This document shows, in pieces, positions 245 to 25,607 of a stretch of 57,799 bases of DNA. The position numbers and the translations under genes were made by a program. Source of the DNA: Catenulispora pinistramenti. GTDB lineage: Bacteria > Actinomycetota > Actinomycetes > Streptomycetales > Catenulisporaceae. The DNA is taken from NCBI RefSeq assembly GCF_018274385.1, contig NZ_JAAFYZ010000045.1, positions 1 through 57,799 on the forward strand. Reading direction: 5' to 3'. A model generated the notes under the pieces. The model was not told the origin of the DNA and did no database searches. It saw nothing but the letters and a program-made list of their open reading frames with translations. Position 1 is the stretch's first letter. Each line of letters starts with the position of its first letter.

Positions 245-847
245 CTAACGCTGCTGCCGCAGGCTCTCCGTGTACGCCACGCAGGTCGCGTAGTCCGGCA
301 GCAGGCCGCTGTCCCGGGCCTCGGACAGCGAGGGTGACTTCGTGTCCCGCTCCGACAGCTGCGGTACCTCGACCTGCCAGTCGATGCCGAGCTCCGCGTC
401 CAGCGGGTACACCCCGTGTTCGTGGCCGGGGCTGTACGTCGCCGAGCACAGGTACGTCAGGGTCGCGTCGTCGGTGAGGGCCGCGAAGCCGTGGCCCAGG
501 CCCTCGGCGATGTAGACGGCCTTGCGGGTGTCCTCGTCGAGGCGGACGCCCTGCCACTGGCCGAAGGTCGGGGAGCCGACGCGGATGTCGGCGATCACGT
601 CCAGGACCGCGCCGCGGGTGCAGGTGACGTACTTCGCCTGGCTCGGGGGGACGTCGGCGAAGTGGATGCCGCGGACCACGCCGGCCGCCGACACCGACAG
701 GTTGCCCTGCCTCAGGTCCAGGGGGTGGCCGACGGCTTCGGCGAGCTGGTCGAAGCGGTACCACTCGGTGAACAGGCCGCGGGGGTCGCCGTGGAGCTGC
801 GGGGTGATCTCCCAGGCGCCGGCGATCGACAGGGGGGCGATGTCCAT
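245..847 (-). CDS. rfbC: dTDP-4-dehydrorhamnose 3,5-epimerase
   Basis: A 200-residue RmlC-family cupin, close to the usual length of about 180-200. It converts dTDP-4-keto-6-deoxy-glucose to dTDP-4-keto-L-rhamnose in the cytoplasm, step 3 of the dTDP-rhamnose pathway. Family landmarks seen: DPRG near residues 21-24, the active-site motif RGIHF with the general-base His62, Lys72 in the QAKYV segment, and YIAEGLGHGF in the cupin core. The ATG at 847 was chosen because the family N-terminus begins just there; the frame stays open upstream into the rfbA region without similarity. A GAGGG sits about 13 bases upstream. It lies 110 bp downstream of rfbA on the same strand. Confidence 0.95.
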   Translation of the reverse strand: MDIAPLSIAGAWEITPQLHGDPRGLFTEWYRFDQLAEAVGHPLDLRQGNLSVSAAGVVRGIHFADVPPSQAKYVTCTRGAVLDVIADIRVGSPTFGQWQGVRLDEDTRKAVYIAEGLGHGFAALTDDATLTYLCSATYSPGHEHGVYPLDAELGIDWQVEVPQLSERDTKSPSLSEARDSGLLPDYATCVAYTESLRQQR

Positions 848-957
848 GCGGGGTGGGCCCTCGTTTCCGGTAGGAGGTCGGTCAGGCGAGGTCGGCGCGG
901 GTGCCGGTGAAGGTCCGCGCCGAGGAAATGATGCGTGCTGGTCAGGATGCGTGCGGG

Positions 958-1827
958 TCAGATCGCGGGGTCGAGCAGGTGTTGCAGATACTCGCCGTAG
1001 CCGCTCTTGCACAGCGGCTCGGCCAGCGCCGCCAGCTGCCGGTCGTCGATGAAGCCGGAGCGCCACGCCACTTCCTCGACGCAGCCGACCTTGTACCCCT
1101 GTCGTTGTTCTATGACGCGCACGTATTCGGCGGCCTGGACGAGGGAGTCGAAGGTGCCGGTGTCGAGCCAGGCGGTGCCCCGCTCCAGGACCTGCACCTG
1201 CAACTGCCCGCGGTTCAGGTACTCGACGTTGACGCCGGTGATCTCCAGCTCGCCGCGGGCGCTGGGCTTGAGGTGTTTCGCTATCTCCACGACCTGGTTG
1301 TCGTAGAAGTACAGACCCGGGATGGCGAAGCGGGACTTGGGCTTGTCCGGCTTCTCCTCGATCGAGACGGCGTGGCCGGTCTCGTCGAACTCCACCACGC
1401 CGTACTCGCGCGGGTTGGCCACCTGGTAGGCGAAGACCACGCCGCCGGCCGGCTCGGTGAGGGTGCGCAGCTGCCGGCCCAGGCCCACGCCGTGGAAGAT
1501 GTTGTCGCCGAGCACCAGGGCGACTGAGTCGCCGTCGATGAACTCCTCGCCGAGGATGAAGGCCTGGGCCAGGCCGTCGGGGCGTTCCTGGGCGACGTAG
1601 CTCAGGTCCAGGCCCCACTGCGAGCCGTCGCCGAGCAGCCGCTGGAACTGCGCCTGGTCCTCGGGGGTGGTGATCACCAGGATCTCGTAGATGCCGGCCA
1701 TCACCAGCGTGGAGAGCGGGTAGTAGATCATCGGCTTGTCGAAGACCGGCATGAGCTGTTTGGACACGCCTTTGGTGATCGGCCACAGCCGTGAGCCGGT
1801 CCCGCCGGCCAGGATGATCCCACGCAT
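958..1827 (-). CDS. rfbA: glucose-1-phosphate thymidylyltransferase
   Basis: A 289-residue RmlA, the standard length. It makes dTDP-glucose from dTTP and glucose-1-phosphate, the first step to dTDP-rhamnose. The nucleotidyltransferase signature is intact: [13 protein letters not shown] near the N-terminus, then the [16 protein letters not shown] segment, and later GDNIFHG. The start is the ATG at 1827, where homology begins; the longer frame to 1950 would run into the rfbB promoter. There is no Shine-Dalgarno sequence, and a TAGAGT hexamer lies 7 bases before the ATG, so the mRNA is probably leaderless. It is divergent from rfbB with only 88 bp between the two starts. Confidence 0.96.
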
Positions 1828-1834
1828 GCTGGCT

Positions 1835-1840
1835 ACTCTA
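1835..1840 (-). promoter_or_regulatory. -10 element of leaderless rfbA promoter
   Basis: On the minus strand TAGAGT (fits TAnnnT) ends 7 bases before the rfbA ATG, so a start of transcription at or next to the A of ATG is expected. No convincing -35 hexamer is visible. It is inferred from position only. Confidence 0.5.
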
Positions 1841-1902
1841 ACGGCGCTTCCTCTGGTCGCCGGTTCGGTCAGCCGCGGGAAGTGGGATCGAGGAACGGCC
1901 GG

Positions 1903-1908
1903 TAGCAT
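1903..1908 (+). promoter_or_regulatory. -10 element of leaderless rfbB promoter
   Basis: TAGCAT ends 7 bases before the GTG of rfbB at 1916, the same arrangement as on the other strand for rfbA. No Shine-Dalgarno sequence can fit in the 7 bases. A leaderless transcript beginning at the GTG is the simplest reading. Confidence 0.5.
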
Positions 1909-1915
1909 CGCGCAG

Positions 1916-2980
1916 GTGAGGATTCTTGTCACCGGCGGTGCCGGGTTCATCGGCTCTGAGTATGTCCGCCAGCTCCTGGCCCGGCCCGGCTCCGCCGATT
2001 CGGTGACCGTGCTGGACGCGCTGACCTATTCGGGGGTCGAGGCCAACCTCGAGCCCGTACGCGACGATCCACGCTTCGCTTTCCGGCGCGGCGACATCCG
2101 GGACGCCGAGGTCGTCGACGCCGTGATGGCCGGGCACGACGCCGTCGTGCACTTCGCCGCCGAGTCGCACGTGGACCGCTCGATCCTCGGCGCCGGCCCG
2201 TTCGTGACCACCAACGTGGTCGGCACCCAGGTGTTGCTGGACGCCGCGCGCAAGCACAACGTCGGCCGGTTCGTGCACGTCTCCACCGACGAGGTCTACG
2301 GCTCCATCGAGGAGGGCTCCTGGACCGAGGAGTGGCCGCTGGCGCCGAACTCCGCGTACTCGGCCTCCAAGGCCGGTTCGGACCTGCTGGTGCTCTCCTA
2401 CCACCGCACGCACAAGATGGACGTGGTCGTCACCCGCTGCTCCAACAACTACGGGCACTACCAGTTCCCGGAGAAGATGATCCCGCTGTCGGTGACCAAC
2501 CTGATCGACGGCGGCACCGTCGCGCTCTACGGCGACGGCGCCAACATCCGCGACTGGCTGCACGTCTCCGACCACTGCCGCGGCATCGACCTGGCGCTGC
2601 GCCAGGGCCGGGCCGGCGAGGTCTACAACATCGGCGGCGGCACCGAGCTGAGCAACAAGGACCTGGTGCAGCTGATGCTGGACGCCACCGGCAAGGACTG
2701 GTCCTCGGTGCGCACGGTCGAGGACCGCAAGGGCCACGACCGGCGCTACTCGCTGTCCATCGACAAGATCCGGGCCGAGCTCGGCTACGAGCCGCGGGTG
2801 GGCTTCGACGAGGGCATCGCGCAGACCATCGACTGGTACAAGAACAACCGTGCGTGGTGGGAGCCGCTGAAGGCGAAGGCGGCTTTGGAGAGCGCCGGGC
2901 AGGACGCGGCTGCGAACCCGGCGGCGAACGCCGCGTCGGGGTCGGCGTCGGCCTCCGCGTCGGGGAGCGCGGCCCGGTGA
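1916..2980 (+). CDS. rfbB: dTDP-glucose 4,6-dehydratase
   Basis: A 354-residue RmlB of the extended SDR family. It converts dTDP-glucose to dTDP-4-keto-6-deoxyglucose with bound NAD. The Rossmann motif GGAGFIG is at residues 7-13, the catalytic triplet STDEVYG at 123-129 (Asp125, Glu126), and YSASK at 148-152 (Tyr148, Lys152). The body ends near residue 320; the last ~30 residues are an Ala/Ser-rich tail unlike the family. The GTG at 1916 is chosen because residue 1 starts directly at the first beta strand. The stop overlaps the start of rfbD (GTGA), so the two are translationally coupled. Confidence 0.96.
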
Positions 2981-3882
2981 GCCGCCCGATCGTCATCGTG
3001 CCCGGGCGTGAGGCGCCGCGGCGCTGGCTGGTGACCGGCGCCGGCGGCCAGCTCGGCGCGGACCTGGTGGCCCTGCTGAAGGCCGACCCGGCCGCGCGGG
3101 TGACCGCGCTGACCCGGGCCGAGCTGGACGTCACCGACGCCGCCGCGGTGACCGCCGCGGTCGCCGGCCACGACATCGTGGTGAACGCCGCGGCCTGGAC
3201 CGACGTCGACGGCGCCGAGACCCACGAGGCCCAGGCCACCGCGATCAACGGCGGCGGCGTCAGCAGCCTGGCCTCGGCCTGCGCGGCCGGCGGGGCCCGG
3301 TTCCTCACCGTCTCGACCGACTACGTCTTCGACGGCAAGGGCACCGCCCCCTACGCCGAATACGCGCCGACCGACCCGATCAACGCCTACGGCCGCTCCA
3401 AGCTGGTCGGCGAGCAGGCCGTGCTCGCGGTGCTGCCGGAGACCGGCTACGTGGTCCGGACCGCCTGGCTCTACGGCGCGCACGGCGCGAACTTCGTGCG
3501 CACCATGCTGCGGCTGGCCGGCGAGCGGGAGACCCTGGACGTGGTCGACGACCAGGTCGGGCAGCCGACCTGGACCGGCGCGCTGGCCGGGCAGCTGATC
3601 GCGCTGGGGCTGGCGTCGGGGGCCCCGGCCGGGATCTACCACGGCACCGCCTCCGGCCAGACGACCTGGTTCGGGCTGGCCCGCGCGGTGTTCGAGGAGG
3701 CCGGGCTGGACCCCGAACGGGTGCGGCCGACCACCTCGGAGAAGTACGTGCGGCCCGCCGAGCGCCCGAAGTACAGCGTGCTCGGGCACGACCGCTGGGC
3801 CGAGGCCGGGATCCCGGAGATGGGGGACTGGCGCGCGATGCTGACCGCCAGCGGGGTGGCCGCCGCAGGTCAGCTCGGCTGA
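2977..3882 (+). CDS. rfbD: dTDP-4-dehydrorhamnose reductase
   Basis: A 301-residue RmlD, the last step to dTDP-L-rhamnose, reducing the 4-keto group with NAD(P)H. It has GAGGQLG at residues 21-27, STDYVFDG at 113-120 and the YGRSK catalytic pair at 138-142 (Tyr138, Lys142). The GTG at 2977 overlaps the rfbB stop by four bases (GTGA), a coupled start. The first ~15 residues before the Rossmann strand are an extra segment; the next in-frame start would cut into the fold. With rfbA, rfbB and rfbC close by, the dTDP-rhamnose pathway is complete. Confidence 0.95.
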   Translation: MSRPIVIVPGREAPRRWLVTGAGGQLGADLVALLKADPAARVTALTRAELDVTDAAAVTAAVAGHDIVVNAAAWTDVDGAETHEAQATAINGGGVSSLASACAAGGARFLTVSTDYVFDGKGTAPYAEYAPTDPINAYGRSKLVGEQAVLAVLPETGYVVRTAWLYGAHGANFVRTMLRLAGERETLDVVDDQVGQPTWTGALAGQLIALGLASGAPAGIYHGTASGQTTWFGLARAVFEEAGLDPERVRPTTSEKYVRPAERPKYSVLGHDRWAEAGIPEMGDWRAMLTASGVAAAGQLG

Positions 3883-3942
3883 GGCCGCGTCCGCCGGCCC
3901 GGCCCCGGCCCGATCCTGGCCCGATCCTGGCCCGATCCCCGT

Positions 3943-3958
3943 TCGTCCATTTGGACGA
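3943..3958. promoter_or_regulatory. 16-bp palindrome upstream of HdeD-like gene
   Basis: Arms TCGTCCA and TGGACGA with a 2-bp centre form a perfect inverted repeat 63 bp before the next start codon. It is preceded (about 3906-3940) by an 11-bp direct repeat CGATCCTGGCC present in two and a half copies. It could be an operator or part of the end of the rfbD transcript; nothing decides between them. Confidence 0.4.
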
Positions 3959-4021
3959 CTTCGGGCCGGGCCGGGGCCGACAAAAGGCATCACCGGTCGG
4001 ATTGTCGGACATAACGACCCC

Positions 4022-4798
4022 ATGACCGACATGTATGACGGTGACGACCGCGGAACCGGCAGGGCCGAGGAAATGCGCGACGGCGGGACCGCCTACCGCG
4101 AGGGTTTCCGCGACCGCGAGGGCATGCGTGACGGCGAGGGCATGCGTGAGCGCGCGTCCGATCGCGGATTCGGCGGGGCTGACCGCGGCGACCGCGTCGA
4201 GGCCGAGAACCCGCTCCGGATCCTCGGGCAGGCCGCGTGGCAGGCGCTGATGGTGCTGGGGCTGGCGGCGATCGCCATCGGCGTGTGCGCGGTGGTCTGG
4301 CCCGGCCGCACACTGCTGGTCCTCGGCGTGCTGTTCGGGATCTACCTGCTGATCAGCGGGGTCATGGAGATCATCGCGGCGTTCGGCGACCACATCAGTC
4401 CCGGGATGCGGGTCCTGAACGTGATCGTCGGCGCGGTGTCCATCCTGCTGGGCCTGTTCTGCTTCCGGAACTCGCTGCACAACTCGGTGCTGCTGCTCAG
4501 CCTGTGGATCGGCATCGGGTTCCTGATGTGGGGCATCGCGACCATCGCGACCAGCGCCTCGGCGCCGCCCGGAGTGCTCGGCCGGGGCTGGGGCATGTTC
4601 GCCGGCTTCATGACGATGCTCGGCGGGATCATCATCATCTCCTGGCCCATCGGCTCCATCTTCACCCTGGCCATCTTCACCGGGATCTGGCTGATCGCGA
4701 TCGGGCTGGTCGAGGTGATCCACGCGTTCACGCTGCGCGGGAAGGTGCGGCAGACGACCGAGCCCAGGTCCGGGTCGGGCAGACACGCGACCGTCTGA
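4022..4798 (+). CDS. HdeD-like (DUF308) membrane protein
   Basis: A 258-residue protein with a charged N-terminal tail (about residues 1-62, rich in Arg/Asp/Glu with repeated RDREGMRDGEGM-type units) followed by a compact block of about six membrane helices in the pattern of the HdeD/DUF308 family. That family is linked to acid resistance in enterobacteria; in actinobacteria the role is unknown. The ATG at 4022 has no clear Shine-Dalgarno sequence. It ends 15 bp before the convergent glycosyltransferase gene. It is not obviously part of the polysaccharide pathway. Confidence 0.8.
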   Translation: MTDMYDGDDRGTGRAEEMRDGGTAYREGFRDREGMRDGEGMRERASDRGFGGADRGDRVEAENPLRILGQAAWQALMVLGLAAIAIGVCAVVWPGRTLLVLGVLFGIYLLISGVMEIIAAFGDHISPGMRVLNVIVGAVSILLGLFCFRNSLHNSVLLLSLWIGIGFLMWGIATIATSASAPPGVLGRGWGMFAGFMTMLGGIIIISWPIGSIFTLAIFTGIWLIAIGLVEVIHAFTLRGKVRQTTEPRSGSGRHATV

Positions 4799-4813
4799 GC
4801 GGGCGGGCGCGCG

Positions 4814-5710
4814 TCAGCGCCGCACCGCCGGATGCTCGGCCCCCGCTGGGAGATAGCGGGGGTCGACGCGTTCCCGGAAGCCGTCGCGGAACCCGCGCAG
4901 CAGGGCCGGCACGTGGGTCCGGCGGCGCGGCTCGAACAGCAGCGTGTTGGTGAGGCGCTCGCCGAGGAAGACGAGGCTGGAGGCCAGGGCCCTGGGTCGG
5001 CTGGCGAAGTGGCCGCGGTGCAGGATCGAGACGTTGCGGCCGATCCAGTACAGGCGCCAGGCGGGGTAGTGGCTGTAGTGGACGGTGCGGCCGAACTTGG
5101 TGTGCACCTCGCAGGCGCCGATCTCGTGCGGCAGCCGCAGCCGCCAGTCGATGACGATGCGCCAGCCCGCCCGCCGCACGTCCAGGCAGAAGGCGACGTC
5201 CACCCAGTCCAGGAACATGTCCTCGTTGAACGTCACCTTCGCCAGCACCTCGCGCCGCACCAGCATCCCGGAGGTGATGACCGCCTCCTCGTCGGAAACG
5301 CCGTCGGTGCGCCGTGCGTCGGAACAGTAATAACGCTGGTGCTTCGGGTCCCAGGGGCTCGGCGCCGCGATCCCGACCGCCGCGTCGTCGAGGTCGGCGA
5401 CCAGGCCCGGGACGATCTCCGGCGGCAGCTCGGAGTCCTGGTCGAGGAACAGGACGGCCTCGATGTCCGCCGGCAGCTCGCGCACCGCGATGTTCAGCGC
5501 GGCGCCCAGGCCCACGTTGCGGCCGTGCGCGATCACCGTGACCTGCGGCCCGGCCAGCGCGGGAGCCGAGGAAACCGGGTCGGAGCCGTCGGCGCCGGCC
5601 GGGGTGTTGTCCACCACGATGACCGAAGCACAGCTGCGCAGCGCCGCCTCGACGGCCGCGGCGAGGCGTTCGTCGGGGTGGTAGGCGGTGAAGACGGCGG
5701 CGACGCGCAT
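4814..5710 (-). CDS. GT2 rhamnosyltransferase-like glycosyltransferase (paralog 1)
   Basis: A 298-residue GT-A glycosyltransferase of the RfbF/rhamnosyltransferase type. It opens with FTAYHPDERL and VVDNTP (Asp34), has the metal-binding FLDQDS (Asp90, Asp92), then ITSGMLVRREVL and the acceptor-side DWVDVAFCLDVRRAG. The C-terminus ends in RVDPRYLPAGAE. Two close paralogs in this window (9790-10692 and 12570-13487) share all these motifs. Together with the adjacent dTDP-rhamnose genes, transfer of rhamnose to a lipid-linked glycan is the likely role. The start ATG at 5710 has AAAGGTGGG about 8 bases upstream. It is divergent from the flippase gene. Confidence 0.85.
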   Translation of the reverse strand: MRVAAVFTAYHPDERLAAAVEAALRSCASVIVVDNTPAGADGSDPVSSAPALAGPQVTVIAHGRNVGLGAALNIAVRELPADIEAVLFLDQDSELPPEIVPGLVADLDDAAVGIAAPSPWDPKHQRYYCSDARRTDGVSDEEAVITSGMLVRREVLAKVTFNEDMFLDWVDVAFCLDVRRAGWRIVIDWRLRLPHEIGACEVHTKFGRTVHYSHYPAWRLYWIGRNVSILHRGHFASRPRALASSLVFLGERLTNTLLFEPRRRTHVPALLRGFRDGFRERVDPRYLPAGAEHPAVRR

Positions 5711-19949: not shown

Positions 19950-22900
19950 TCACAGGTGGACCGAGCTGCTGATGCCGGCGCTCAGGGCCGATATCCCGGT
20001 GTTGGTGTCGAGCAAGATCCAGCCGACGCCGGGCGTGCCCGGGTACTGCCAGACCGAGCCGTCGTTGTGCATCTCGTAGAGAGCGCCGTCCGCGCCGGCC
20101 TGGATGCCCGTGGTGTTCGGGTTGTTGTCCAGCTGGGTCCAGCTGTTCGGGGCGCCGTTGTAGGACCAGACGGTGCCGTCCTTGTGGGTCTGGAAGAGCT
20201 GTCCGTTGCCGCCCACCTTGATGTCGGTGATGTTGGCGTCGGCGTCGATCTGGGTCCAGCTGTTGGACGTGCTGTTGTACGACCACAGCGAGCCGTCGTT
20301 GTGCAGTTGGTACAGGTTGTTGCCGCCGGCGGCGATCTCGACGGTGTTCGGGTTGTTGTCCAGCCTGGTCCAGCTGTTCGGGGCGCCGTTGTAGACCCAG
20401 ATGGTGCCGTCCTTGTGCAGCTGGTAGACGTTGTTGGCGACGACCGCGCCGACGGTACCGGGGTCGGTGTCGATCTTGGTCCAGTTGTTCGGGGTGCCGT
20501 TGTAGGCCCAGAGCGTGCCTTCGTCTGCGTGCAGCTCGAACATCCCGGCGCTGCCGGCGAGGATCTGCGAGGTGTTGGTGTTCTTGTCGGTCTGAGTCCA
20601 GCCGGCCAGCGGAATGCCGCCATAGGCGTCCGTGGATCCGTCATTGTGCAGCTGGTAGAGCCCGGTCGCCGACGACGCGATCTGAGTCGTCGTGGGGTTG
20701 TCGTCCACCTTGATCCAGCCGACGCCGGGCGTGCCCGGGTACTGCCAGAGGGTGCCGTCGGTGTGCAGCTCGTACAGCGGCTTGGTCCTCCAGCTCGCCG
20801 AGCTGGATTCGCCGCCGTTCACCATGCTGGTGCCGGAGTCGTTGTCGATCATGGTCCAGCTGGTGCCGGTGCCCGTGTACTGCCAGAGCGAGCCGTCGTT
20901 GTGGGTCTGGTAGAGCATGCCGTCCGCGCCGGTCTGGATGCCGGCGGTGTTCAGGTTGCTGTCCAGCGGCGTCCATACGGTGCCGGAGCCGGTGTACGAC
21001 CAGACCGACCCGTCGTAGTGGGTCTGGTACACCTGTCCGTTCCCGGCCACCTTGATGTCGGCGATGTCGGTGTTGCTATCGATCAGCGTCCAGCTGTTAG
21101 GCGTGCCGTTATACGACCACAGCGTGCCGTCGCGGTGCAGCTGGTACAGGTTGTTGCCGCCGGCGGCGATCTCGACGGTCATGCTGTTGTCGTCCAGCGG
21201 TGCCCAGGTGGTGCCGGAGCCGGTGTACGACCAGATCGAGCCGTCGTTGTGCAGCTGATAGGCGGTGTTGCCGATTGCGAGCGCCACTGTGCTGGCGTTG
21301 GTGTCCAGCGGGGTCCAGCTGGTGCCGGAACCGGTGTACGACCAGACTGAGCCGTCGTTGTGCATCTGGAACAGTCCGGCGCCGCCGGCGGCGATCTGCG
21401 TCGTGCTGGTGTTGTTGTCGATAGGCGTCCAGGTGCCGGGAGTGCCGGTGTACTGCCAGACCGTGCTGTTGTTCGCGTGGAACTGGTAGATCTTGGAAGC
21501 CGACGCGACCACCTGGGTGGTGTCCGTGTTGGTGTCGATCTTCGCCCAGCCGGTCATCGGTGTGCCCGTGTACTGCCACAGCGTGCCGTCCGGGTGGCGC
21601 TGTACCAGCATGCCGTTCCAGACCGAGATGCTGAGCGGGCTGGAGGTGCCCGACCTGGCTCCGGAGGCGTTGAAGGCCACAGCCGTCAGCGAGTGGGTGC
21701 CGTCGGGGATCGTGGTGGTGTCGATGTTTTGGGGGAACGCTCCGCCTGCCGTCGAGGTGCCGACTGCGTGCCCGTCCACGTCGTACTCCACCTTGGTGGT
21801 GTTGGCGCTCAGTCCGCTCGCGGTGAGGGTCACCGAACCGGTGAGGGCCCCGGCCGGGGCGATGACGGTCGGTGTCGCGGGGACGTTGCTGATGGTGATG
21901 CTGACGGCGGGGCCGTCGACCTCGTTGCCGTTGTAGTTCGCGCCGATGAACGCCTGATAGCTGCCGTCAGGGATGGTGAGGGCGGGGCTGTCGGAGGCGC
22001 CGGTGGTGTCGAACTGGTACCTGAAGGTGGGCCCGCCCTGGATTGCCGGATGGGGGACGATGTCCGCCCCGCCCCCGGCGGGCCGCAGGTGTAGGTAGTA
22101 CTCCGTAGGGGCAGGGGACGCGCTTCCGGTGACGGTCACGGTTCCGGAGATGGGACTGGTGGTGGACAAGCCGGATGGAGCAGACACCGTTGGTCGGATG
22201 TCGGAAGTGGTGTCGTGCATCCAGTGCACGTCGCCGCTGCCGCCGAGGACGTTTTCGACCATGCCGTTGCTTACGGGGATGCCGTCCCACTCGCCGGGCG
22301 TGGAGGCGACTTCGTTCCAGTTCTCGTGGACCATGTCGATGGTGCCATTGCCGTTGGCGTCGACGTGACTGGCTATGACGATGCCGGTGTGGCCGGCACC
22401 GCTGTTGTAGTAAGCGATCACATCGCCGGGCTGGGGGGCGGTGTGATCGGACAACGAGTTGCCGCGCAGTACGAAGCGCCCGGGGTGGATCTGGTTGAGG
22501 GCGGCGGTGAGGTTGTCGGCCTGGTCCTTGCCGTCGCCGCCGTCGTTGCCGGTCAGGCCCCAGCGCTGGATCGCGTAGCGCATCGGGAGTTCGGCGCACT
22601 CCCATTCATTGCTACCCCAGCCGGTCGTGCGGTCGTTGCCGTTGCTGTAACCGCACACCTGCAGGCCGTCGATCTTCTCGTTGAGCAGGCTGTAGTAGCC
22701 GCCGTCGCAGGTACCGCCGCCGTGGTTCCAATAGCTGGACGGAGGTGGGGGCAGCGTCCCCCCGAAGGAGATGACCGGGTCTCCTGAAGCTGCGGCGGTG
22801 ACGGCCTTGGTGGCGGCGTGCGGATTGGAGCCGGCATTGGCGGCGGCGACATCGACAGTGGTCGGCGCGGCCAGATTCGAGGCGGTCAGCGTGATGTCCG

Positions 22901-23447
22901 TGCCGAACCCGGCCGGGACGTCGGGCTCGGCGTGTTCAGCGCGTACGATCCAGATCCGCTGGCCGGCCTCGACGATCCACTGCACCGTCTGGATCTTCGA
23001 GGTGCCGTCGGTCTCGTGCCGGACTTGTCCGGTCACCGTCTGCCCGAACAACGTCGCGACCGGGCCGGGGGTCGAAGGGCCCTCGACCGAACGCCAGGCG
23101 GCGGCACCGCCGGCCGCCGCGACCGGGAAGTCGGACTTCGGCAACTGCTCGCCGAAGGGTACCGCCGTGACCGAGAAGAACCGGAATGGCCCGGCGGCCT
23201 CAGCCGAGGCGCTTTGCACCGGGTCCCCGGGCTTGGGGGCGAACGACGCACCGGTCGGCATATCAGGGTTGGTTACCGTGAGTGCGACGCCATCGACGCT
23301 CATGGCGTGCTGTGAGGGCACAGTACTGACGCTGGCCACAGGGGCGACGGCATCCGCGGCGTGCACAGCGGGCATCGCGCACATCGGGGCGGCGACCAGG
23401 GCTCCGGCGACGACCATGGCGGACAGGCTTCGGCGAATAAGGGGCAT
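19950..23447 (-). CDS. secreted CHAP-domain protein with two seven-repeat propeller blocks
   Basis: A 1165-residue exported protein. Residues 1-30 are a Sec signal peptide (RR, hydrophobic core, AVHA/ADA cleavage site). A CHAP amidase/peptidase-like domain spans about 240-415: Cys284 in WECAELPMRYAIQRWG, His353 in GHTGIVIAS, Glu375/Asn376 in VHENWNE. Two Ig-like domains follow (about 417-520 and 525-610). Residues 612-1165 are 14 repeats of 37-47 residues with the consensus LYQLHxDGSxWxYxGtxxxWtxiDxNxxT, tachylectin/tectonin-like. Repeats 1-7 match 8-14 one by one, so two seven-bladed propellers are likely. The ATG at 23447 has AGGAGAT 8 bases before it. It may cleave cell-wall or other peptides while the propellers bind glycans; target unknown. 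Confidence 0.85.
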   Translation of the reverse strand: MPLIRRSLSAMVVAGALVAAPMCAMPAVHAADAVAPVASVSTVPSQHAMSVDGVALTVTNPDMPTGASFAPKPGDPVQSASAEAAGPFRFFSVTAVPFGEQLPKSDFPVAAAGGAAAWRSVEGPSTPGPVATLFGQTVTGQVRHETDGTSKIQTVQWIVEAGQRIWIVRAEHAEPDVPAGFGTDITLTASNLAAPTTVDVAAANAGSNPHAATKAVTAAASGDPVISFGGTLPPPPSSYWNHGGGTCDGGYYSLLNEKIDGLQVCGYSNGNDRTTGWGSNEWECAELPMRYAIQRWGLTGNDGGDGKDQADNLTAALNQIHPGRFVLRGNSLSDHTAPQPGDVIAYYNSGAGHTGIVIASHVDANGNGTIDMVHENWNEVASTPGEWDGIPVSNGMVENVLGGSGDVHWMHDTTSDIRPTVSAPSGLSTTSPISGTVTVTGSASPAPTEYYLHLRPAGGGADIVPHPAIQGGPTFRYQFDTTGASDSPALTIPDGSYQAFIGANYNGNEVDGPAVSITISNVPATPTVIAPAGALTGSVTLTASGLSANTTKVEYDVDGHAVGTSTAGGAFPQNIDTTTIPDGTHSLTAVAFNASGARSGTSSPLSISVWNGMLVQRHPDGTLWQYTGTPMTGWAKIDTNTDTTQVVASASKIYQFHANNSTVWQYTGTPGTWTPIDNNTSTTQIAAGGAGLFQMHNDGSVWSYTGSGTSWTPLDTNASTVALAIGNTAYQLHNDGSIWSYTGSGTTWAPLDDNSMTVEIAAGGNNLYQLHRDGTLWSYNGTPNSWTLIDSNTDIADIKVAGNGQVYQTHYDGSVWSYTGSGTVWTPLDSNLNTAGIQTGADGMLYQTHNDGSLWQYTGTGTSWTMIDNDSGTSMVNGGESSSASWRTKPLYELHTDGTLWQYPGTPGVGWIKVDDNPTTTQIASSATGLYQLHNDGSTDAYGGIPLAGWTQTDKNTNTSQILAGSAGMFELHADEGTLWAYNGTPNNWTKIDTDPGTVGAVVANNVYQLHKDGTIWVYNGAPNSWTRLDNNPNTVEIAAGGNNLYQLHNDGSLWSYNSTSNSWTQIDADANITDIKVGGNGQLFQTHKDGTVWSYNGAPNSWTQLDNNPNTTGIQAGADGALYEMHNDGSVWQYPGTPGVGWILLDTNTGISALSAGISSSVHL
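19953..20780 (-). repeat. propeller block 2 (repeats 8-14)
   Basis: Encodes residues 890-1165, seven repeats. At DNA level repeats 11 and 13 share a segment of about 50 bases (20343-20392 and 20112-20161) with only two or so differences, which indicates recent copying or gene conversion within the block. Confidence 0.8.
20781..21614 (-). repeat. propeller block 1 (repeats 1-7)
   Basis: Encodes residues 612-889, seven repeats, two residues longer overall than block 2. Repeat 5 carries DNA nearly identical to repeat 12 (around 21138-21180 and 20308-20341). Register with block 2 is kept throughout: for example GQVYQTHYDGSVWSY in repeat 6 and GQLFQTHKDGTVWSY in repeat 13. Confidence 0.8.
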
Positions 23448-24177: not shown

Positions 24178-24348
24178 TCAGTCCCAGCCGAAGCCGTTGG
24201 CGGACGTCGGGGTGATGGCGGTGGCCGAGGCGATGGCCGGCGGGGTGGTGTCCCAGCCGAATCCGGCTTTTGACGCCGTCGACGCCGAGGCGGTCACGCC
24301 AGAGATCGCGACGAGGCCGGCGACGATGAGGAAACCGAATTTCGACAT
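24178..24348 (-). CDS. secreted small peptide precursor with duplicated GFGWD motif
   Basis: A 56-residue frame, too short for usual gene calling. It starts MSKFGFLIVAGLVAIS with a charged N-terminus and a hydrophobic core, followed by an Ala/Ser-rich VTASAS-type signal peptidase region near residue 20-25. The mature part would be about 30 residues and contains GFGWD twice: AGFGWDTTP in the middle and NGFGWD as the very C-terminus. No Cys is present. The 96-residue partner follows after 6 bases, and a TrmB/LuxR-type regulator is divergent 270 bp away. This looks like a secreted signal or effector peptide. The ribosome site is weak (GCGGG). Confidence 0.7.
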   Translation of the reverse strand: MSKFGFLIVAGLVAISGVTASASTASKAGFGWDTTPPAIASATAITPTSANGFGWD

Positions 24349-24617
24349 GGTGGTACCCGCATTCGTGTGTCATGGATTTCGGGATTCCTCACCGGATTCT
24401 TTATGTCTTTCGCTCCGGTGCTTCCCGCTGCACTTTGAATTCTGCCGGGCTGCCTGCCGCAGCGGAATACTGTGCGGGTGGCTCGAACACGCCCGGCGTA
24501 CTCACGCCACCCCGGCGCCGCGACCGCTTTAGGACATTGCGGAGGTCAACAGCGCCCTGCCATCCTGTGCTCCGAACGTGTGAGCGATCAGGGGTGGGGC
24601 GGCTCTCAAGGGTGGGG
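24349..24617. promoter_or_regulatory. divergent promoter region, peptide operon and regulator
   Basis: 269 bp between divergent starts. An interrupted inverted repeat CACCGG-N19-CCGGTG lies at 24390-24420, about 40 bp before the peptide start, and is a candidate operator. The middle is AT-richer than the rest (TTCTTTATGTCTTTC). No gene seen. Confidence 0.45.
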
Positions 24618-25607
24618 ATGATGGTTCTTGGTGTGCTTGGCCTGTCGTCGCAGGCCGAGGCTGTTTACGCGGCGATGCTCGCCGATCCGGGCGCAGAGCT
24701 CGAAAAGGTGATCAGCGCCGCCGGTTTGGACGAACGCAGTGTCCGGGCCGGTCTGGACGAGCTGGCGGAGTTTGCGTTCGTGCGCCCCTCGCGGGACATG
24801 CCCGGCACCTTCCGCGTGGTCAGCCCTGAAGTCGCCCTGGACGCGATGGTGCGCCGCCAGGAAGCCGAACTGGCACGCCAGGCGCAGGAATTGGCCGCGA
24901 ACAAGGTGGCCGCGGCGGCAGCGGTCGCCGAATACGGCCGCTCGGCATCCGCGGCCACCCAGGCGGGCGGTGAACGCCTCATCGGGCTGGACGCGGTCGC
25001 GGCCAAGTTGGAGTTGCTGGCGAAGGAAGCCCGCGAGGAATGCCTGTCGGTGATGCCCGGGGGCGCCCAGTCCGCCGCCAGCCTGAACGCGTCACGCCCG
25101 CTGGACGCCGCGGCGCTGGAGCGTGGCGTGGATGTTCAGACGCTGTACCAGGAAAGCGTCCGCAACGATGCCGCGACCTTCGCCTACGCCCAGTGGCTGA
25201 CCAGCCAGGGCGGCCAGGTGTGTACCGCGCCGCTGCTGCCCCCGCGCATGGCCATCGTGGACCGCCACACCGTGCTGGTCCCGATCGACCCGGCCGATAC
25301 CAAAGCCGGCGCCCTCTGCACCAGCGAGCCGGCTATCGTCGCCTCCCTGATCGCCGTCTACAGGCAGGCCTGGGCCACAGCTGTCCCGCTCGGCGCCGAC
25401 CGTACCCCCGGCACCGACGGTCTGTCCCGGGTCGAACACGACCTGCTGCTGCTCCTTGCCCAAGGCCTGACTGACGATGCCGCGGCCAAACGCCTGGGCC
25501 TCGGGCTGCGCACCGTCAGCCGACAGATGACCGGCCTGATGGAACGCCTCGGTGCCACCAGCCGGTTCGAAGCAGGACTGAAAGCCGCCCAGCGCGGCTG
25601 GCTGTAG
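24618..25607 (+). CDS. TrmB-like/LuxR-type transcriptional regulator
   Basis: A 329-residue regulator. Residues about 1-75 form a TrmB-type winged helix (LGLSSQAEAVYAAMLADPG, LDELAEFAFVRPS), followed by an Ala-rich helix (about 80-120), a PLD-like sensor region with AREECLSVMPGG and MAIVDRHTVLVPID, and a C-terminal LuxR helix-turn-helix (about 268-329: LSRVEHDLLLLLAQGLTDDAAAKRLGLG, then RTVSRQMTGLMERLGATSRF). There is no receiver domain, so a ligand rather than phosphorylation may be sensed. The ATG at 24618 has AAGGG close upstream; ATG 24621 is possible. It is divergent from the peptide operon and probably controls it. Confidence 0.85.
   Translation: MMVLGVLGLSSQAEAVYAAMLADPGAELEKVISAAGLDERSVRAGLDELAEFAFVRPSRDMPGTFRVVSPEVALDAMVRRQEAELARQAQELAANKVAAAAAVAEYGRSASAATQAGGERLIGLDAVAAKLELLAKEAREECLSVMPGGAQSAASLNASRPLDAAALERGVDVQTLYQESVRNDAATFAYAQWLTSQGGQVCTAPLLPPRMAIVDRHTVLVPIDPADTKAGALCTSEPAIVASLIAVYRQAWATAVPLGADRTPGTDGLSRVEHDLLLLLAQGLTDDAAAKRLGLGLRTVSRQMTGLMERLGATSRFEAGLKAAQRGWL

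Follow-up and report, generated by a model that had tools for sequence, protein, structure and literature searches.

Beta-propellers repeated as whole units in one chain are already known, as in LRP-type receptors. Propeller origins are described in PMC9218822 as proceeding mainly via single-blade growth; one two-blade case, the only one its authors observed, is given there among highly repetitive propellers. Fourteen near-identical blades in two rings are reported in PMC6805158. The protein discussed here also has 14 repeats. It is encoded in a window of 57,799 nucleotides, which is the entire contig NZ_JAAFYZ010000045.1 of the 11.46-Mb draft genome of Catenulispora pinistramenti (assembly GCF_018274385.1). 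The gene (23447..19950, minus strand; ATG at 23447, stop codon at 19952-19950) encodes 1165 amino acids (aa): in order, a probable signal peptide, an N-terminal region, a CHAP domain, two immunoglobulin-like (Ig-like) domains and the 14 repeats (residue 612 to the end). We estimate a probability of roughly 0.75 that these repeats form two seven-bladed rings derived by duplication of a whole ring. A literature search (titles and abstract starts; few subscription journals) found no account of whole-ring copying in this ring family and none of a propeller-tailed CHAP protein.

Fourteen repeats and the register between rings

The repeats span residues 612-1165 and are 37-46 aa each (about 39 aa). 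Ring 1 (repeats 1-7; 20784..21614, minus strand) has repeat starts at 21614, 21494, 21380, 21269, 21155, 21038 and 20921. Ring 2 (repeats 8-14; 19953..20783, minus strand) has starts at 20783, 20666, 20549, 20435, 20321, 20204 and 20087. Repeat lengths are 40, 38, 37, 38, 39, 39 and 46 aa in ring 1 and 39, 39, 38, 38, 39, 39 and 45 aa in ring 2, and paired repeats n and n+7 differ by one residue at most. The blocks are of 277 aa each in our delimitation; an earlier note on this DNA, which was made from the sequence alone, gave 278 and 276 residues.

Pairing each repeat n with n+7 is the best of the 5040 possible assignments of ring-2 to ring-1 repeats (summed BLOSUM score 865; mean of all assignments 665). 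Mean identity is 53.6% in this register, as opposed to 36.5-41% in the six other rotations, 37-42% at other offsets and about 42% on average between neighbouring blades. The middle pairs 4/11, 5/12 and 6/13 are the strongest (61, 72 and 64% identity). The two rings are 55% identical overall. At the DNA level the halves are 74.0% identical over 789 base pairs (bp) in register and 66-67% in longer off-register alignments, and codon-level identity averages 71.6% in register versus 62.0% (rank 2 of 5040). In a tree of 28 rings, the bootstrap of which was not fully settled, the two window rings are sisters (100/99). Chance or low complexity as a cause of the register is ruled out by the permutation rank of 1 in 5040, and an assembly duplication by the 45% difference between the rings in protein.

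A relative of the same genus, C. pinisilvae, has a 948-aa frame that is homologous to the window protein over its whole length, with the same architecture and a single seven-repeat ring. An AlphaFold2 model of residues 612-1165, made with 15 relatives, has two rings (predicted local distance difference test score [pLDDT] 87.5; predicted TM-score 0.67). It contains four strands for each of the 14 repeats (28 per ring) and a short end strand per ring, so each ring is predicted to have seven four-stranded blades. The strands of ring 1 occupy residues 3-267 of the 554-aa model and those of ring 2 residues 280-545. The extra strand after ring 1 (residues 883-885; 20793..20801, minus strand; DSSP 272-274) is of low confidence (pLDDT <50). 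A probable closing strand of ring 2 is found at residues 1161-1164 (SSVH; 19956..19967, minus strand; DSSP 550-553 of the model), and the closing end of the C. pinisilvae ring (...SSGATRSAHL) resembles this C-terminus. The two tandem seven-bladed propellers proposed in the earlier note are supported by this model, by the relative with exactly seven repeats and by the repeat counts of related loci (see below).

The two-ring entries among the Foldseek matches listed include an LRP6 fragment (the top match), 1nr0 (title: 'Two Seven-Bladed Beta-Propeller Domains') and 4nsx. Query-normalised TM-scores among the 50 matches listed are 0.28-0.40, and we take these low values to reflect a different ring-ring orientation. 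VIA-align matches RCC1-like domains and PLL/PHL lectins with Z scores of about 20-22 over about 255 residues, mainly in ring 2. The matches of single-ring folds cover mainly model residues 225-548, and ring 1 appears only in two-ring matches with a large root-mean-square deviation. Absence of a family from the VIA-align list was not taken as exclusion.

Several results weigh against a whole-ring copy. A repeat tree (39 columns) has support only for the pair 5/12 (93/90) and otherwise fails to pair n with n+7; it joins repeat 8 with repeat 14 (96/96), both of which share WQYPGTPGVGW. Silent sites have no register: for codon pairs that encode one and the same residue, silent identity amounts to 108/137 in register versus 440/594 otherwise (rank 1281 of 5040). 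Within the blades, strands A and B keep the register (58% versus 39%; rank 1 of 5040), whereas strands C-D have none (rank 551 of 5040). With other borders the contrast is the same (ranks 1 and 1036 of 5040). Resemblance among strands C-D is slightly greater within a ring than across rings (as extreme in 58 of 1716 label splits). The blade halves were split by eye after viewing the alignment, so these figures are descriptive; strands are lettered after tachylectin-2.

The memory of the register lies in the inner blade half (A+B), and the outer half shows none. Because silent sites lack the register, the copy is old, and a recent duplication is ruled out on the same ground. The tree, which pairs one repeat in seven with its counterpart, together with the silent sites suggests an event that is old and partly overwritten. 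We read this as a whole-ring copy, after which the outer blade halves underwent exchange or parallel change within each ring. The match of n with n+7 claimed in the earlier note holds for the repeats as a set but not in every case. Pairs 2/9 and 3/10 are weak: the best ring-2 partner of repeat 2 is repeat 11, repeat 3 scores 13 and 11 above 10 (106 and 105 versus 103) and repeat 10 is tied between 3 and 5. Repeat 11 prefers 5. Its expectation that a tree would pair each n with n+7 held for one pair in seven.

Ring relatives and the origin of the second ring

Genome contigs were scanned with a profile of five aligned rings, which gave 24 loci from Acidobacteria, Verrucomicrobiota, Pseudomonadota, Bacillota, Actinomycetota and Ktedonospora. 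Repeats were counted with a profile built from the window and C. pinisilvae repeats; matches shorter than 15 aa were dropped, as was one stray upstream match in each of L048, L049, L050, L054 and L055. Fourteen repeats are present in eight loci (L042-L044, L047-L050 and L052), three of which (L048-L050, Lysobacteraceae) are close relatives of one another. Seven repeats are present in nine (L045, L046, L051, L053, L056 and L058-L061), the count for L045 being a partial repeat, six repeats and another partial. Two Cupriavidus loci (L054 and L055; identical printed repeats) have 12 repeats and a partial one. In these loci and on the Cupriavidus plasmid NZ_CP016951.1 the second ring stops at five repeats and a partial, that of the Lysobacteraceae having seven. 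The remaining loci have six repeats (L057), six matches and one double-length gap (L062) or five repeats (L063), are split over two frames (L064) or lack any frame holding three repeats (L065). An Azospirillum plasmid protein has seven repeats. Most loci thus fall at 7 or 14 repeats, though not all do. In each of the eight complete doubles, the first strand is missing at the start of ring 1 and an additional YQLH-type strand stands at its end, ahead of ring 2, as a closed ring predicts. A class-wide search with the window tail (394 genomes, E-value 1e-15) gave one relative besides the gene itself (E-value: 3.4e-30, near a contig end).

None of the eight complete doubles other than the window protein, which come from other phyla, has an n/n+7 memory (ranks 364 to 4948 of 5040). 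Their inner halves alone have no register either (406-4890 of 5040), and the outer halves of one, L042, reach rank 88. Blades are more alike within a ring than across rings in L043, L044, L047 and L052, which would be expected if rings grew blade by blade or were homogenised later. For L042 and the three loci of Lysobacteraceae, identity within rings and identity across them are equal or nearly equal. When the window rings were compared with nine single rings (18 comparisons), two ranked at 1-2% (101 and 67 of 5040), those of window ring 1 with C. pinisilvae and with Roseomonas; the other 16 ranked 968 of 5040 or worse. A single ancient double ring common to all relatives is unsupported, since the window rings are sisters and the other doubles lack the register.

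The origin favoured here, duplication of a complete propeller as proposed in the earlier note, is supported by the rank of the register, the sister rings and the absence of a register from the other doubles. Two other origins were considered. Position in the ring, rather than descent, might make n resemble n+7: blades would have been amplified singly, and those in equivalent positions (first, last or linker-facing) would have converged. The lack of a register at silent sites, the special contexts of first and last blades and the 2/18 single-ring comparisons that lean to the same register agree with such convergence. However, the signal is strongest in the middle pairs, the eight doubles show none under the same positional demands, nearly all comparisons with single rings (16/18) are likewise without it, and the window rings are closest to each other. 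Convergence is therefore considered improbable. Alternatively, the rings may have been joined from two separate, related single-ring genes, placing tail beside tail. The exchange of whole-module tails on a common scaffold (see below) would make the addition of a second tail possible, and the 45% difference between the rings also speaks for it. This origin is unlikely, as the window rings group to the exclusion of 26 other rings and the only further tail match in the genome itself is distant (32% identity, E-value: 2e-7) and of an alternating repeat type.

With whole-ring duplication in the window protein, the copied unit would be seven blades. It is probably one blade in several of the double-ring relatives, and would be two in some tails: blades alternate with a period of two (ABABABA) in L074 (G007 contig 4), L077 (G001 contig 135) and ring 2 of L043, where identities at offsets 1 and 2 are 0.41/0.73, 0.64/0.86 and 0.67/0.79, respectively, which suggests a copying unit of two blades within a seven-bladed ring. 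In an Azospirillum ring (L037), offsets 4 and 6 are highest (0.71 each) and blades 2-3 resemble blades 6-7 by eye; its copying unit was perhaps four blades. Three Streptomyces plasmid proteins (L039-L041) carry related alternating repeats in two sets, with C-terminal domains after them. Two of these proteins are annotated as nucleases and one adjoins an SMI1/KNR4 gene; they resemble polymorphic toxins whose N-termini are propellers.

The CHAP-Ig scaffold and its tails

A probable signal peptide (residues 1-31, ...PAVHA|AD; 23355..23447, minus strand) was read by eye from the sequence. The CHAP domain (PF05257; residues 277-376; 22320..22619, minus strand) scores 30.6 bits against a cut-off of 26 in a Pfam scan of residues 1-611; it is not listed when the whole protein is the query, for which neither Pfam nor NCBIfam gave anything above a cut-off. 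Columns C284, H353 and N376 are invariant in 8/8 aligned sequences, that of the window included. The domain has the putative catalytic Cys and His and a polar third residue, the Asn. Phage CHAP endolysins are known to use a glutamate; its column is not conserved in the CHAP alignment. The first Ig-like domain probably covers about residues 418-520, judged by eye from the alignment with the C. pinisilvae relative. The second (residues 522-589; 21681..21884, minus strand) matches Big_7 (E-value: 0.0011) with 20.1 bits, under the cut-off of 24.1.

When residues 1-611 were searched in 391 genomes of the order (E-value 1e-20), six genomes matched, that of the window included. A Streptomyces camelliae plasmid adds a match (71.5% identity over residues 46-523). 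A phylum-wide search with the CHAP part (396 genomes, E-value 1e-15) found only the gene itself. The tails of these proteins were counted with one motif per tail, written after reading it, and tail length divided by best lag is 6.7 to 7.2. The C. pinisilvae tail has seven repeats of the window's type. That of G007 contig 4, a gene 78% identical to the window's in the N-terminal part, consists of seven tachylectin-like repeats of about 40 aa and of an alternating type; this gene (L074) contains a single in-frame TAG within the N-terminal half. Seven repeats are also present in the tails of G264 and S. camelliae (about 48 aa), G011 (about 53 aa), G001 (52-55 aa) and G007 contig 1 (about 47 aa), and in a G007 contig 9 protein that has only the Ig part in common (about 53 aa). 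The window's tail is the only doubled one among them.

In a BLASTP comparison of the nine tails, the window is joined with C. pinisilvae (1e-45) and distantly with G007 contig 4 (1e-17), and G264, S. camelliae, G011 and G007 contig 9 form a second group (1e-74 or better). These two groups, G001 and G007 contig 1 match one another only weakly (best 3e-5; nine-sequence database). DNA similarity to G007 contig 4 (84%) stops near residue 532, ahead of the second Ig-like domain, with the exception of one 83-bp piece. On these sequence comparisons, the CHAP-Ig scaffold carries a tail that is exchanged as a whole module.

Elsewhere in the window, a frame at 24178-24348 (minus strand) encodes a small peptide (56 aa) that starts like a signal sequence and contains GFGWD twice; the frame adjoins a divergent gene for a LuxR/TrmB-like regulator (24372-25607, plus strand). 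At 76-180 a 12-bp unit is repeated in tandem (8.8 copies, 98% matches).

Function of the tail and comparison with known systems

The best reading of the protein is a secreted CHAP hydrolase with a lectin-like targeting tail; we infer its binding, target, activity and secretion. The case for a lectin-like tail is that the ring joins hydrolase domains elsewhere (M10, S8, M12 and M19, in other proteins), that the ring profile finds Tectonin 2 and that members of the ring alignment match the Tectonin family (PF19193). Eleven of the 16 members do so at an E-value of 0.01 or better (best 3.9e-25), and the cut-off of 30 bits is reached by two of eight relatives scanned. Against PDB sequences, the five-ring profile finds Tectonin 2 (5fsb; E-value: 5.6e-11) behind the Cake8-10 chains (3e-17 to 8e-15), which are designed propellers. 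Searched singly, the window protein gave a best E-value of only 0.23 in PDB sequences and no match in the phage records searched. The ring region alone matches the KIB1-4 propeller family (25.5 bits, below the cut-off of 27.4). The motif DxDxDG was not seen by eye in the 554 ring residues; it lies in loop AB of VCBS propellers, and tachylectin-like propellers also lack it, according to PMC8023676.

Other observations detract from this reading of the protein. The window protein itself is not listed for PF19193 at an E-value of 1 or 0.01, and no sugar-binding residue was identified in its rings. The full-length model has a mean pLDDT of 59.8, is poor in the N-terminal 611 residues and supports the rings only. 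Neighbouring genes encode GT2 glycosyltransferases, DUF2142 membrane proteins and a LuxR/TrmB-like regulator (Pfam); this fits cell-surface work and proves nothing. The tail could instead be a scaffold for protein-protein docking or surface anchoring, with the CHAP domain acting on the cell's own wall. The adjacent glycosyltransferase and DUF2142 genes would suit work on the cell's own envelope, and the best single-ring fold match is RCC1-like (Z 22.5), level with the lectins. In sequence, however, the ring family is near Tectonin, the members of which are described in PMC5238581 as binders of sugars with O-alkylated hydroxy groups. We regard such a scaffold as possible but doubtful, and lean towards a lectin function of the tail.

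The proposed model, with the lectin-like tail, is as follows. A secreted cysteine hydrolase of the CHAP type, probably an amidase or endopeptidase acting on peptidoglycan, would be aimed at its substrate by a C-terminal tail of two tandem seven-bladed beta-propellers. A complete propeller would have been duplicated within the gene, and the rings would then have diverged to their present identity while the outer halves of the blades ceased to reflect the copy. With two rings there might be two sets of glycan pockets, which may differ, and hence greater avidity or breadth. A broader picture can be offered only tentatively. In Catenulisporaceae and Streptomycetaceae, the CHAP-Ig scaffold may launch seven-bladed lectin tails that are interchangeable and belong to several sequence types, in the manner of umbrella-toxin lectins. 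The tails might renew themselves by copying a single blade, a pair of blades or an entire ring. In the window protein a ring would have been copied, which would double the sugar pockets of an enzyme that cuts the walls of competing bacteria. These secreted CHAP proteins would be a small group with a wholly exchanged binding tail and a candidate targeting system against other bacteria, and the ring family allows the size of the copied unit to be compared within related blade types.

Among known systems, the Tectonin family (PF19193; Tectonin 2, 5fsb) has the same repeat sequence type as the ring family. Tectonin 2 is six-bladed and differs in this from the seven-bladed rings of the window protein. 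The PLL/PHL lectins of Photorhabdus are likewise seven-bladed, but are 14-19% identical to a window ring in the fold alignment and are not among the matches listed in the PDB sequence searches with the single protein or the five-ring profile. They are free lectins and are not known as tails of a hydrolase. Up to seven fucose sites per PHL monomer are reported in PMC6797808. The constant part of UmbA of the Streptomyces umbrella-toxin lectins is described in PMC11062931 as trypsin-like and, in S. coelicolor, lacking a complete catalytic triad. In its place, the window protein has the CHAP and Ig-like domains with the conserved C/H/N, and the trypsin family is absent from its Pfam lists. Whole propellers are likewise repeated in one chain in LRP5/6, where the repeats arose by unit duplication; these are animal receptors with EGF spacers and YWTD blades, and the LRP6 rows of the Foldseek list (9-11% identity) are unrelated in sequence to the window rings. 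The 14 WD40 blades of WRAP (Npun_R6612) likewise fold as two seven-bladed rings (PMC6805158), but are near-identical, single blades having been amplified recently. That pattern is not seen in the window protein, where identity is 42% between neighbours and 54% at offset 7, and where a whole ring was probably copied.
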